From positions 1 through 64,000 of the IMG/VR virus record IMGVR_UViG_3300017917_002116: 64,000 nt of DNA. One strand, written 5' to 3'. The notes beneath the pieces were generated by a model, which was not told the origin of the DNA, ran no database searches, and was given only the letters and a program-made list of their open reading frames with translations. The position numbers and the translations under genes are program-made. This DNA comes from a virus. This document shows positions 19,993-24,114 of the stretch, piece by piece (position 1 is the first letter of the stretch; each line of letters starts with the position of its first letter).

Positions 19993-20021
19993 TTGACAAA
20001 AAGTCAAAACCATTATATAGT
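19993..20021 (+). promoter_or_regulatory. Early sigma70 promoter for the FNR-desaturase-ACP operon
   Basis: TTGACA at 19993-19998, 17-bp spacer, TATAGT at 20016-20021. An inverted repeat TTGAC-AAAAA-GTCAA (19993-20007) overlaps the -35 box and could be an operator. The -10 overlaps that of the divergent HNH promoter. Confidence 0.85.
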
Positions 20022-20062: not shown

Positions 20063-20272
20063 ATGGACATCGACTCAATTGACCATCACATCAGAACACT
20101 GACGAATCAGCACACTAAACTAGAGCGCGATTTGGATCAAATGCTTAAACAGAAAAGCTGGAACGAATACGATGCAGAAAACATCAAAAAGCAGAAATTA
20201 AAAGTCAAGGACGAATTGAGTAGAATGTATAGGTTGAGGCATGAAAAAATGAACGAAATAGAGTGGGATTAA
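20063..20272 (+). CDS. Small coiled-coil protein (69 aa)
   Basis: ATG with AGGAG 8 nt upstream. The protein is almost entirely charged helix with heptad-like spacing (IDSIDHHIRTLTNQHTKLERD, then QKLKVKDELSRMYRLRHEKMNEIEWD). It resembles short DUF465-like helical-hairpin proteins of phages and proteobacteria, but I cannot assign it firmly. First gene of the early operon; the next gene starts two bases after its stop. Confidence 0.6.
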   Translation: MDIDSIDHHIRTLTNQHTKLERDLDQMLKQKSWNEYDAENIKKQKLKVKDELSRMYRLRHEKMNEIEWD

Positions 20273-20273
20273 T

Positions 20274-20687
20274 GTGACTAGTATTGTGGACTTGGAACAG
20301 GCGGTAAGCCATCTTGAAATTATCAGCAAACAACTACATACTCAGGCTCTGGAATTTTACCCAGGGGAAGAATTTGCCACGTTAGACCGAGAAAACGTTG
20401 AAGTTCTCGAGGCAATCAGTGATATCAAACGATCATTAGATTTGATAAGGATAAACAACGGGCTAACCGATTTAGAGCACCAGAAACACAGGTTAGAAAC
20501 TAGGCAACAACAATTAGAGGATTTCTTTATGGAGACCTCAGATGATTTTCTCAACAACAGCCTAATGAGTCTGCACTCAGATATTATGCAGACAAAAAAA
20601 GAATTGCATATCAAAAGGCATCAAGAAGTAAATATAGTTTTGAACGAAACAACAAATAAACTTCTTGAACGATACCAATTGATATGA
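20274..20687 (+). CDS. Coiled-coil protein (137 aa)
   Basis: The start appears to be GTG at 20274, two bases after the previous stop; the nearby ATG at 20272 is followed at once by TGA. Predicted all-helical: VDLEQAVSHLEIISKQLHTQ, then a long Leu/Gln/Glu helix with heptads. No enzyme motif, signal or membrane segment. The ATGA overlap with the FNR gene couples the two translationally. Unknown function; its fixed position ahead of FNR is the only clue. Confidence 0.6.
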   Translation: MTSIVDLEQAVSHLEIISKQLHTQALEFYPGEEFATLDRENVEVLEAISDIKRSLDLIRINNGLTDLEHQKHRLETRQQQLEDFFMETSDDFLNNSLMSLHSDIMQTKKELHIKRHQEVNIVLNETTNKLLERYQLI

Positions 20688-21460
20688 GTTATACCACAGA
20701 AAAAGTTTTATCAGTTACGCACTGGAACGAGCGTCTTTTTAGCTTTACCTGCACTAGACCGCAGAGTTTTAGGTTTGTCAGTGGCATGTTTGTCATGATC
20801 GGTCTAATGGTAGACGGCAAACCTTTGCTACGTGCTTATAGCGTTGCGAGTCCTAGCTGGGACGAAACTCTGGAATTTTATAGCATCCATGTTGAAAATG
20901 GACCGCTGACCAGCCGACTAAACAAAATACAAGTGGGCGATGAGGTGCTGTTGGGCACCAAGCCCGTGGGCACCTTGTTAATGAACAACCTACTACCAGG
21001 AAAGAATTTATGGTGTCTGGCAACCGGCACTGGACTGGCACCATTTATGAGTGTTATGCGCGATCCAGAAATTCTGGAGGCCTATGACAAAATTATAGTA
21101 ACACACACCAATCGATATCACTCGGAATTTGCCTATCAGGATTATATTAAAAACGAGTTGCCAAATCATGAATATCTAGGCGAACTTATACGCGACAAAC
21201 TAGTCTACATCCCCACAGTTACTAGGGAATCACAACCAAAATTTGTCAGCGGCCGCATAACAGATCTGCTAAAACAGCCCGACTTCTATAGACTATATGG
21301 ACTGGAACAAATTAACATACACAAAGATCGTGTAATGATCTGTGGTAACCCTGATATGGTACACGAACTAGCAGATTGGTTCGAAGAGAAAAGCTGGAAG
21401 ATGGGCAGCGCCAGCAGTCCAGGGCACTTTGTCATTGAAAACGCTTTTGTTGACAGATGA
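20684..21460 (+). CDS. fpr: Ferredoxin-NADP+ reductase, bacterial FPR type (258 aa)
   Basis: This is a full-length flavoenzyme. The FAD-binding motif RAYS is at residues 50-53, GDEVLLGTKPVGTL follows at 85-98, and the NADP-binding loop ATGTGLAPF at 113-121 with MICGNPDMV near 221. The C-terminus FVIENAFVDR resembles the Azotobacter/Rhodobacter subclass of FPR. It moves electrons between NADPH and ferredoxin or flavodoxin in the cytosol. It overlaps the upstream gene (ATGA) and is followed directly by a membrane fatty-acid desaturase, whose reaction needs reduced ferredoxin, so it plausibly powers it. No ferredoxin gene is in the window. All key motifs are intact. Confidence 0.92.
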   Translation: MSYTTEKVLSVTHWNERLFSFTCTRPQSFRFVSGMFVMIGLMVDGKPLLRAYSVASPSWDETLEFYSIHVENGPLTSRLNKIQVGDEVLLGTKPVGTLLMNNLLPGKNLWCLATGTGLAPFMSVMRDPEILEAYDKIIVTHTNRYHSEFAYQDYIKNELPNHEYLGELIRDKLVYIPTVTRESQPKFVSGRITDLLKQPDFYRLYGLEQINIHKDRVMICGNPDMVHELADWFEEKSWKMGSASSPGHFVIENAFVDR

Positions 21461-21474
21461 GGACAGGCTGGCAC

Positions 21475-22287
21475 ATGAAAAAAATACTCGGCTTATGGAC
21501 CAACCTAGGTGAAAACTTTAGACGCATATATGTGCCGGCGCACATACTTGCCTTTATTGCTATCGCAACGTTGTTCACTGGCCAGACCTCATTAACATGG
21601 CTACTGCTCATTTACCCAGCATGGTTTATTCTTGGTCACATTGGTTTTGGTATTTTTATTCACAAGTATTGGTGCCACAAAAGTTTTAAACCAAAGCAAT
21701 GGGTGGCTAGACTAGGAGCATTTCTGGGTCTGTTTGCCGGTACGGGGAGTCCTGTAATGGTCAAAGCCATACATATAGGAGAACATCATCCGCACACTGA
21801 CACCCAAGATGACCCACATACGCCACTAAAAGGTTTTTGGTGGAGCTATTTCATGTGGTTGAATCATAGGTGGGATTTAAAAAAGATATGGATCGTCAAA
21901 GATCTAATGAAAGACCCGTTTATAAAATTCTACCACGTACACTACTATAAAATTTATTGGGGTATGTGGTTCTTATTAGCCTTGATTGATTGGAGATTGG
22001 CGGTATTTACAATAAGTTTTACCACCGTTATAGAATTCCACCTGTCAGGTATCGTTAATAGCTTCGGTCATATTGCACACAAAGGAAGCTATCAAAACTA
22101 TCCAGACTGTGGCGACAACAGCCAAAACATTCCATGGGTTAGTTGGCTAACATTGGGTCTGGGATTACACAACAATCATCACGGAGAACCATGGAATTAT
22201 AATTATGCAAGAAAGCCAGGAGAATTTGATTTTGCTGGCTGGTTCGTACCGCTAATTTCTATAGATAAAGAGAAAAAGAATGGATAA
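21475..22287 (+). CDS. Membrane fatty-acid desaturase, delta-9-like (270 aa)
   Basis: The chosen ATG (21475) has AGGA about 12 nt upstream; an in-frame ATG at 21457 overlapping the FNR stop is an alternative. The family's histidine boxes are all present: HKYWCH (63-68), H100-x3-HH (104-105) followed by TDTQDDPH, and HNNHH (232-236), plus GHIAH (199). Three to four hydrophobic segments (about 20-50, 85-95, 160-190) place it in the inner membrane. It is expected to insert a cis double bond in a saturated acyl chain using O2 and reduced ferredoxin through a di-iron centre. Flanked by FNR and ACP, it suggests acyl-ACP or membrane-lipid desaturation. Substrate not determinable here. Confidence 0.9.
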   Translation: MKKILGLWTNLGENFRRIYVPAHILAFIAIATLFTGQTSLTWLLLIYPAWFILGHIGFGIFIHKYWCHKSFKPKQWVARLGAFLGLFAGTGSPVMVKAIHIGEHHPHTDTQDDPHTPLKGFWWSYFMWLNHRWDLKKIWIVKDLMKDPFIKFYHVHYYKIYWGMWFLLALIDWRLAVFTISFTTVIEFHLSGIVNSFGHIAHKGSYQNYPDCGDNSQNIPWVSWLTLGLGLHNNHHGEPWNYNYARKPGEFDFAGWFVPLISIDKEKKNG

Positions 22288-22516
22288 CTTAAATCAAAAG
22301 GTCATTGACCTAGTAGCAGAGCACTTTAACGTTAAACCTAGTATTATTAATAACGATACTAAATTTATCTCCGACTTGAACGGTGATAGTCTAGATGTCG
22401 TAGAACTTATACTTTTAGTCGAGGACAAGTTTAATGTTATTATTGACGAAGACATAGCAGAAACTATGATCACTGTTGGCTCGTTGATTGATTTCTTAGA
22501 GAAATCTACAGCATAA
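22280..22516 (+). CDS. acpP: Acyl carrier protein (78 aa)
   Basis: Standard ACP length and fold. The phosphopantetheine site is DSLD at 36-39 with Ser37, followed by VVELILLVEDKFNVIIDEDIAE, the canonical helix II/III region. It needs host holo-ACP synthase for activation; no such gene is in the window. The start overlaps the desaturase stop by 8 nt, indicating coupled translation. As the third gene of the operon it may present acyl chains to the desaturase or redirect host fatty-acid synthesis. The 3' end overlaps the converging oxygenase gene by 11 nt. Confidence 0.93.
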   Translation: MDNLNQKVIDLVAEHFNVKPSIINNDTKFISDLNGDSLDVVELILLVEDKFNVIIDEDIAETMITVGSLIDFLEKSTA

Positions 22517-23243
22517 ATTTTTCAGCCAGTCGCCTTGGGTCATCATTAATGCCCGATAGGTTAACGTTAATGGTCAGCCTGTCTAGTGGCCCGTGATTCC
22601 ATATGCTATGGAATTTTCCAGTATCAATAAAATACCAATGACCATCAGCAGGAATTTGGAAACGAGTTCCTGCTATTTCATACCAAGCATTATCTCCGCC
22701 AAATAGTGTGGCATGTAGCCGTATTCCTCGATAATAAGGGAAATCAACATGGCTGCTTAAATAGCCTTTATTTTTTAATTCCAACAAGCTGGCCTTGGTT
22801 ATGTTTGACTTAAATTTTGAAAATACGGTTTGAAAATAACTTGTATAAATTTCTGTTGGTTCGACAAAGTCGTTTTCGATTAGTTCAGGAAGTTTTTTGT
22901 TCATGTATAAATCTTCTGGGAACACTTCGCCTAATTCAGCGTCCCTTCTGACAAAATGATCTTCCAGTGGCGCTGCTGAATTATTTCTAGACAAAAATCC
23001 CAGGCCTTTATATCTATCGTATTTTTTACCTGAACTATTTCTATTAATACTCTTGGTACTATGTTTTTCTAGTAGAGTCCGGACTTCTTCTCGCATCTTT
23101 ATCAAGTCAAAACTATAATAAGATGGTAGCCTAAAAAATACATAATCTAATTCTTTTTGATCCTTGTACCATTCGTCTAAGGACTTGCTATACTTCACAG
23201 TATCAATACTATCCCCCCAGGGTTCATTAATATTGATTTTCAT
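22506..23243 (-). CDS. Asp/Asn beta-hydroxylase-like 2OG-Fe(II) oxygenase (245 aa)
   Basis: ATG 23243 is chosen; a longer frame would need TTG at 23261. The C-terminal double-stranded beta-helix carries the metal triad: His165-x-Asp167 in SSHVDFPYYRG, a distal His (212, in GKFHSIWNHG) and Arg222 in PLDRLTINVNL that would bind 2-oxoglutarate. The pattern fits the aspartyl/asparaginyl hydroxylase (cupin) family. The N-terminal ~150 residues are unrecognised and may bind the substrate. It overlaps the 3' end of the radical SAM gene, so the two are co-expressed and may modify the same target. The target may be peptide, nucleotide or small molecule. Confidence 0.75.
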   Translation of the reverse strand: MKININEPWGDSIDTVKYSKSLDEWYKDQKELDYVFFRLPSYYSFDLIKMREEVRTLLEKHSTKSINRNSSGKKYDRYKGLGFLSRNNSAAPLEDHFVRRDAELGEVFPEDLYMNKKLPELIENDFVEPTEIYTSYFQTVFSKFKSNITKASLLELKNKGYLSSHVDFPYYRGIRLHATLFGGDNAWYEIAGTRFQIPADGHWYFIDTGKFHSIWNHGPLDRLTINVNLSGINDDPRRLAEKFML

Positions 23244-24114
23244 ATTTTTTAATATGCTCAAAGAAAGGCGCCAGTTTGAAGTCAGGTGTTAGTCTGCCTC
23301 GTCTATTGTTGCCTGGATCGGGCAGATCTGAACCCGCAGGGCTCCAGTCTGTAATTTTGACCCAGGATGTAGTATACTTTTTATCTGCTTCAACGGGAAA
23401 AAATATTACATTCTTTTCATCATAGCCATTGATCTTATTCTGATTCTGCGCCCAAGAGGCATCAACTCCCAATTGATCACAGACTAGGCTAACCATTTCG
23501 TCCCAGGTCCAATTTTCGTGTTTCTCAAGGCTATATCTTCCTACTTGTCCTACGTTGCGGAATCTTAAAATAGCCTTATTATTAAACCCATTTACCAATT
23601 CTAATAGGCGTTTTGGTACGTTGTTGTTGACACCTTTTTGCAGTATGGCGCCCACGTTAACATTCATCTTTACTGCTAGACATTCTTCCAGGGCTTTTAC
23701 TTTGCGTTCGGCCCAGGCGCCGCCACCATCCATAACTTTGTAGATTTCATTGTCATCTGCACCGTTCATGCTTAGGTAGATACTACGCATGCCGGCGTCT
23801 GCTAATTCTCTCGCATAACCTGGTCTCGCAACCATGAGTCCATTGGTCATCATTGTTGGTCGGTGGCCACGTATTTTGATGTTGTGTACAATGTCCACCA
23901 AATCGATTCGAACGGTTGGTTCTCCACCAATCAATCTGATTTCTGCTTTGTTGGGAATTTGATCCAAAACTTCATAAAATCGAGCCACATCCAGATCCGG
24001 ACCGATTCTATTAGGTGTATAACAATTGGCACATTCCATGTTGCATTTGTGCGTTACGTCCACAAATATACTATAGAAATGGTTGTCTTTTGGTTCAAGT
24101 TCGTAGTAGTTCAT
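23227..24114 (-). CDS. Radical SAM enzyme (295 aa)
   Basis: The [4Fe-4S] motif C24-x3-C28-x2-C31 (CNMECANC) and the SAM-binding GGEP (63-66) are intact, with the typical TNGLM strand near 95 and SMNGADDN near 126. No second cysteine cluster is seen (only two other Cys), so it lacks a SPASM/Twitch domain. The overall shape is close to MoaA/NifB-like and peptide-modifying radical SAM proteins. Paired with the overlapping 2OG oxygenase downstream. Divergent from the ligase operon; a weak minus promoter (TTGTCA, 15 bp, TAAAAT) lies just upstream. Substrate unknown. Confidence 0.85.
   Translation of the reverse strand: MNYYELEPKDNHFYSIFVDVTHKCNMECANCYTPNRIGPDLDVARFYEVLDQIPNKAEIRLIGGEPTVRIDLVDIVHNIKIRGHRPTMMTNGLMVARPGYARELADAGMRSIYLSMNGADDNEIYKVMDGGGAWAERKVKALEECLAVKMNVNVGAILQKGVNNNVPKRLLELVNGFNNKAILRFRNVGQVGRYSLEKHENWTWDEMVSLVCDQLGVDASWAQNQNKINGYDEKNVIFFPVEADKKYTTSWVKITDWSPAGSDLPDPGNNRRGRLTPDFKLAPFFEHIKKYENQY

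Follow-up and report, generated by a model that had tools for sequence, protein, structure and literature searches.

Cyanophage desaturases were reportedly described by Roitman et al. in 2018. Phage fatty acid desaturases have also been documented as Arctic vFADs (PMC7300359), in freshwater pelagimyophages (PMC7029224), and in Baikal phages (PMC7678222). These resemble the protein analyzed here in being membrane desaturases carried by aquatic phages; however, the desaturase of the window (the whole stretch of 64,000 nucleotides analyzed) differs from them in its HX3HH histidine box II and in its constant coupling to genes for an acyl carrier protein (ACP), a radical SAM enzyme, an oxygenase, and a GNAT-fold protein. 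Among phages with ACPs, P-HM1 and P-HM2 carry ACP and ACP synthase genes (PMC3037559), and a roseophage carries a fabG-acpP-fabF set for chain elongation (PMC8224337). These phage ACPs are of the FAS type, as here, and sometimes come with the phage's own phosphopantetheinyl transferase; however, within the 100 kb of P-HM2 examined, the ACP lies apart from any desaturase and from the transferase, unlike in the cassette described below, and this isolate did not carry the cassette over the same 100 kb. A desaturase with a dedicated ACP, as in the phage cassette, is found in the JamABC alkyne cassette and polyyne clusters (PMC8406139), although no fatty acyl-AMP ligase or rubredoxin was found in nine phage records, and the phage cassette has radical SAM, 2-oxoglutarate (2OG) oxygenase, and GNAT genes instead. 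FeeM-type N-acyl amino acid synthases (PMC4897644) are GNAT-superfamily enzymes that work with an ACP; here, a GNAT-fold protein occurs in relatives of the window but not in the window itself, and its fold matches generic N-acetyltransferases. Pelagibacter phage Mosig EXVC030M has a looser island in which FA_desaturase, Asp_Arg_Hydrox, MoaA-like, and N-acetyltransferase genes lie close together; unlike in the window, no ACP is annotated there, and only weak matches to the window proteins were obtained. Desaturases and ACPs have each been recorded in phages on their own, and phage metabolic genes are usually interpreted as single borrowed enzymes. A desaturase-ACP-radical SAM-oxygenase-GNAT cassette was found neither in the papers searched, all of them open-licence full texts, nor in isolate phages.

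The window belongs to a 115-kb virus record, the portal protein of which is ~50% identical to jumbo-phage portals such as those of Atu_ph07 and PA5oct. An earlier note on this DNA had described genes for a ferredoxin-NADP reductase (FNR), a desaturase, and an ACP as one early operon, and all three genes were intact at the positions it gave and bore the motifs it named (table 1). The three genes belong to a run of five plus-strand genes, and the description as an early operon has only a sigma-70-like promoter match behind it, which is a consensus match in a sequence where promoter-like sites overall were not much above shuffles. The DUF465-like protein that opens the run has a 65% identical counterpart in the sister contig L002, and the 137-aa protein has a 24% identical relative there. 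The oxygenase and radical SAM genes, which overlap each other and are convergent with the ACP gene, lie just outside the region that the note had covered, on the opposite strand.

Table 1. Features of the probable acyl-modification locus in the window
Feature	Coordinates	Strand	Remarks
Sigma-70-like promoter match, TTGACA-17-TATAGT	19993..20021	+	11/12 consensus positions; ahead of five + strand genes
Small DUF465-like protein, first gene of run	20063..20272	+	PF04325 27.5 bits, cut-off 25
137-aa protein, function unassigned	20274..20687	+	GTG start; overlaps FNR by 4 bp
FPR-type ferredoxin-NADP reductase (FNR)	20684..21460	+	FAD_binding_6 and NAD_binding_1 above cut-off
Membrane di-iron desaturase, HX3HH box II	21457..22287	+	PF00487; probable true start 21475
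FAS-type acyl carrier protein (ACP), Ser37	22280..22516	+	overlaps desaturase gene by 8 bp
2OG oxygenase, Asp/Arg-hydroxylase type	22506..23261	-	probable Met start 23243
MoaA/Tes-like radical SAM enzyme	23227..24114	-	PF04055 68.4 bits

We addressed the identity of each protein by profile and structure-based comparison. The FNR (about 258 aa) was 56% identical to the solved ferredoxin-NADP reductase 4F7D and scored 290-316 bits against solved FNRs; both RAYS and ATGTGLAPF were present, RAYS and GTGLAPF being invariant with respect to bacterial FNRs, and the C-terminus reads AFVDR where bacterial FNRs have AFVEK. The gene is that of a typical bacterial FPR, with predicted NADPH-ferredoxin/flavodoxin reductase activity. 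The ACP (PF00550, 5e-10; TIGR00517, 72.0 bits where 70.45 are required), with Ser37 within GDSLD, is an FAS-type carrier for which phosphopantetheinylation is predicted. The desaturase matched PF00487 with 54.9 bits (cut-off 29.7) and has the histidine boxes HKYWCH, HIGEHH (HX3HH), and HNNHH; the eight box histidines, together with H205 and N201, were invariant across five desaturase sequences, and no close relative was found among 50,697 phage records. A weak profile match to the SCD1 structure 4YMK was obtained, and the structure model (pLDDT 42) was too poor to use for an SCD-like membrane fold. Box II departs from the HX2HH of SCD1, the alignment to 4YMK displacing its first histidine by one; HX3HH was present in every ACP-linked desaturase, whereas most other phage desaturases examined had HX2HH. 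Because of this difference from SCD1, hydroxylation or acetylene formation might be catalyzed instead, a point against the desaturation step proposed below. The homologues of the desaturase begin at the internal Met at position 21475; if the window gene does so too, a gap of 14 bp replaces the 4-bp overlap with the FNR gene, whereas the desaturase-ACP overlap of 8 bp is independent of the choice of start.

Scans of viral contigs with the desaturase and the radical SAM enzyme yielded 12 other contigs encoding both, no search having selected on the ACP, and in all 12 an ACP gene followed the desaturase gene on the same strand. The two genes overlap by 4-11 bp in nine of these relatives, and by 4, 8, or 11 bp in 10 of the 13 contigs including the window; in the remaining three (L003, L004, and L005), the two are separated by a further desaturase gene, an AcpS-like gene, or both, the AcpS-like genes being those of L003 and L005, which match ACPS weakly. 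The contigs are fragments and include near copies (L030, L031, L032, and L035), leaving 10 non-redundant contigs with the window. Across these 10, desaturase distances correlated with ACP distances (r=0.78, permutation p=0.0005) and more weakly with radical SAM distances (r=0.36, p=0.01). A desaturase-ACP pair was present in each of the six close relatives that were retrieved with only the desaturase as query, so that the adjacency of the two genes is more than chance. Such a conserved and tight coupling fits an ACP-bound acyl substrate.

The company of the pair was conserved as well: all 12 relatives encode a MoaA-like radical SAM enzyme together with a GNAT-fold protein, and six encode a 2OG oxygenase. 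In L002-L005, L010, and L013, the desaturase-ACP pair is convergent with the oxygenase and radical SAM genes, as opposed to L029-L033 and L035, where radical SAM, desaturase, ACP, and GNAT genes form one run without an oxygenase; genes that were neighbours by chance would be unlikely to stay together through such reordering. The radical SAM enzyme has its nearest solved structures in MoaA, Tes, and PqqE, and the CxxxCxxC cysteines (C24, C28, and C31) were invariant in 18 relatives; it scored below every curated family (at best 92 bits where 490 are needed; MoaA 75/325; Tes 62/450). The oxygenase scored 19.6 bits against PF05118, under the cut-off of 22.6, and matched the solved "beta-hydroxylase" 7V4F by profile (2e-7), with H165, D167, H212, and R222 invariant and HxD...H conserved. 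The GNAT-fold protein (about 210 residues) was not recognized by Pfam; the GNAT fold was predicted with good confidence (pLDDT 88.8), the PDB matches, with values to 1e-8, were to generic N-acetyltransferases, and the protein was missing from the genome record of the window. More distant phage relatives of the radical SAM enzyme (39-41% identical) are immediately followed by a gene for an ACP bearing a DSLDSIE motif, a further hint that the substrate is bound to a carrier. These distant pairs were seen in large aquatic phage contigs (L083-L087, L090, L094-L096, L098, and L102). A radical SAM protein of Stenotrophomonas phage TS-12 was rejected as a cassette member (24% identity, no cassette annotated). 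The contigs L025/L026 (228 and 164 kb) and L004 (193 kb) encode 4-5 different desaturases each, beside B12-type radical SAM, Rieske, Asn-synthase-like, GNAT, and 2OG oxygenase genes, and resemble a biosynthetic island.

Taken together, the gene content suggests that a conserved cassette for acyl-ACP tailoring exists, of which the locus is, on balance, probably the copy of a single phage. The unit of interest is the desaturase and ACP with the radical SAM enzyme, the oxygenase, and the GNAT-fold protein, and the FNR-desaturase-ACP trio is not a natural unit. The earlier note had regarded electron supply, catalyst, and acyl carrier as belonging together, and this held for the conserved pair of catalyst and carrier but not for the FNR: none of the 12 contigs with a desaturase-ACP pair had an FNR, so that the trio does not recur as a module, and the FNR was absent from all 21 other cassette-related records, these 12 included. 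Its membership in the conserved unit was rejected, and the FNR is an accessory, local add-on known only from the window copy of the cassette.

In L002, which has HNH, DUF465, and ligase neighbours in common with the window, a GNAT gene occupies the place of the FNR. In a profile scan, a close FNR turned up in a single additional phage-like contig, L151 (53% identical), in which the FNR gene directly follows a radical SAM gene, 3 bp apart, and in which no desaturase was found over the 71-kb record. The FNR of the window seems to be an optional source of electrons, serving either the desaturase or the radical SAM enzyme or both of them, since it is missing from the relatives and since that of L151 stands beside a radical SAM gene without a desaturase. 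At L151 3719-10466, the FNR is accompanied by radical SAM, carbamoyltransferase, and second radical SAM genes. The other FNR-bearing viral contigs (L150 and L152-L155) contained no cassette gene. Two further candidates were discounted as phage evidence: the Acinetobacter MD-2021a contigs, on which the genes are ordinary chromosomal ones, and a match in Pseudomonas phage Y12, which comes from an unverified, unannotated record. The record CAKLQH020000004.1 (L147), named Acinetobacter phage MD-2021a, carries such chromosomal genes and misleads phage searches.

Bacterial flavodoxin/ferredoxin reductases feed radical SAM enzymes, and the client of the FNR could likewise be the radical SAM enzyme instead of the desaturase, a host flavodoxin or ferredoxin being held in the reduced state that SAM cleavage needs. 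The arrangement in L151 speaks for this reading; however, there are two cases only, and in the window the FNR gene is part of the desaturase-ACP run, while the radical SAM gene is on the other strand. We consider this a serious possibility, a little short of even, and it is compatible with the rest of the acyl-ACP tailoring explanation. A reading of the FNR as a passenger of a mosaic region, functionally unconnected with the cassette, is rather unlikely. The FNR is found in one copy only, where L002 has its GNAT gene, and the gene content around the core differs between contigs, as such a passenger would have it; however, its frame is intact, its catalytic motifs are retained, its junctions are tight on both sides, and the desaturase and radical SAM enzyme both require electrons.

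FNR-type reductases and desaturases can work together. On this ground, the FNR, desaturase, and ACP might raise the unsaturation of bulk membrane lipids and so tune fluidity during infection, as published phage desaturases have been interpreted (PMC7300359), and the Baikal phage study suggests that phage ferredoxin-type genes and a desaturase cooperate (PMC7678222). However, the FNR is not conserved with the desaturase-ACP pair, some relatives have three to five different desaturases, and the constant radical SAM, GNAT-fold, and oxygenase partners are not needed for fluidity; given this company, membrane-fluidity tuning is less favoured and, in our view, unlikely. The least probable reading, and a very unlikely one, is a JamABC-like cassette in which ACP-bound chains are desaturated or turned into acetylenes by the desaturase to make a natural product: the pairing of desaturase and ACP is the core of JamABC (PMC8406139) and several phages have extra desaturases, but neither a rubredoxin nor, in nine records (fragments) with responding controls, the fatty acyl-AMP ligase (PF00501) that membership also involves was found.

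For the preferred acyl-ACP tailoring pathway, we infer an ACP-bound substrate, an order of steps, an electron route, and a product as follows. The phage-made ACP would be converted to its holo form by the host phosphopantetheinyl transferase, or by a phage AcpS-like enzyme in some relatives, and would then probably be loaded by host fatty-acid synthesis. The same nine phage records yielded no loading enzyme besides the ligase, which suggests that ACP loading depends on the host and counts against the pathway. Desaturation would take place in the membrane: using O2 and two electrons, the desaturase, whose gene lies immediately before that of the ACP and in most copies is translationally coupled to it, would insert a double bond into the chain carried by the ACP. 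Further changes to the chain may come from the radical SAM enzyme and the 2OG oxygenase, and in most relatives the GNAT-fold enzyme would hand it to an acceptor that is probably an amine. With electrons drawn from NADPH, the FNR, a putative local acquisition from bacteria, would supply the radical SAM enzyme, the desaturase, or both by way of a host ferredoxin or flavodoxin. We assume a carrier of host origin because ferredoxin was not found in 23 phage records, nor flavodoxin or rubredoxin in nine (fragments in both cases, with controls responding).

More broadly, and tentatively, with slightly less than even confidence, we proposed that large aquatic phages share a multi-enzyme pathway with its own carrier, and sometimes its own carrier-activating enzyme, that would, in the course of infection, yield a new kind of modified acyl compound, such as an N-acyl product that is desaturated, hydroxylated, and radical-modified, with rare bacterial chromosomal counterparts of the pathway. 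If so, a conserved cassette combining its own acyl carrier with oxygen, radical, and transfer chemistry would amount to a whole acyl-modification pathway run by some phages. The gene set is small and named, and it can be expressed and tracked by mass spectrometry, which makes the role of phage desaturases and ACPs directly testable.

The bacterial counterparts came from a radical SAM profile scan of bacterial genomes, in which an oxygenase-desaturase-radical SAM tandem was observed in the Bdellovibrionota L109 and L110, and a third such operon (L169) came from a later genome search. In L110, a clear holo-ACP synthase (AcpS) gene follows the radical SAM gene, and L114 has the oxygenase, desaturase, and radical SAM families in a different order. 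The operon agrees with the phage cassette in having three homologous enzymes in tandem, once with AcpS; however, it has no ACP gene, and its desaturase is a distant relative (60-74 bits). The oxygenase was present in 3 of 291 sampled Bdellovibrionota genomes and is faintly like the lipid A hydroxylase LpxO (19.5 bits, 500 required). The gene that precedes the Bdellovibrionota operon shows a pattern similar to that of the phage GNAT-fold protein, but the similarity was not significant and homology was rejected. In alphaproteobacteria, the radical SAM family, accompanied by GNAT and oxygenase-like genes, has a giant protein as a non-lipid neighbour, which counts against the acyl-ACP reading, as the family may have another substrate.

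Several minor observations were made alongside. At L113 4877-13903 and L118 5800-14872, the alphaproteobacterial radical SAM gene lies behind the GNAT/oxygenase-like genes and beside an open frame of >2,000 aa. A second Bdellovibrionota locus, L170 2397-7126, has oxygenase, radical SAM, and desaturase genes with a gene that is crotonase-like by eye, which suggests acyl chemistry. L122 and L125 are filed under bacterial MAGs but appear phage-like by eye; both have the radical SAM island and are probably mis-binned. Elsewhere in the source phage, a 688-aa protein (L007 8720-10786; record 92720-94786) shows, by eye, a signal-like start and a subtilisin-like stretch.
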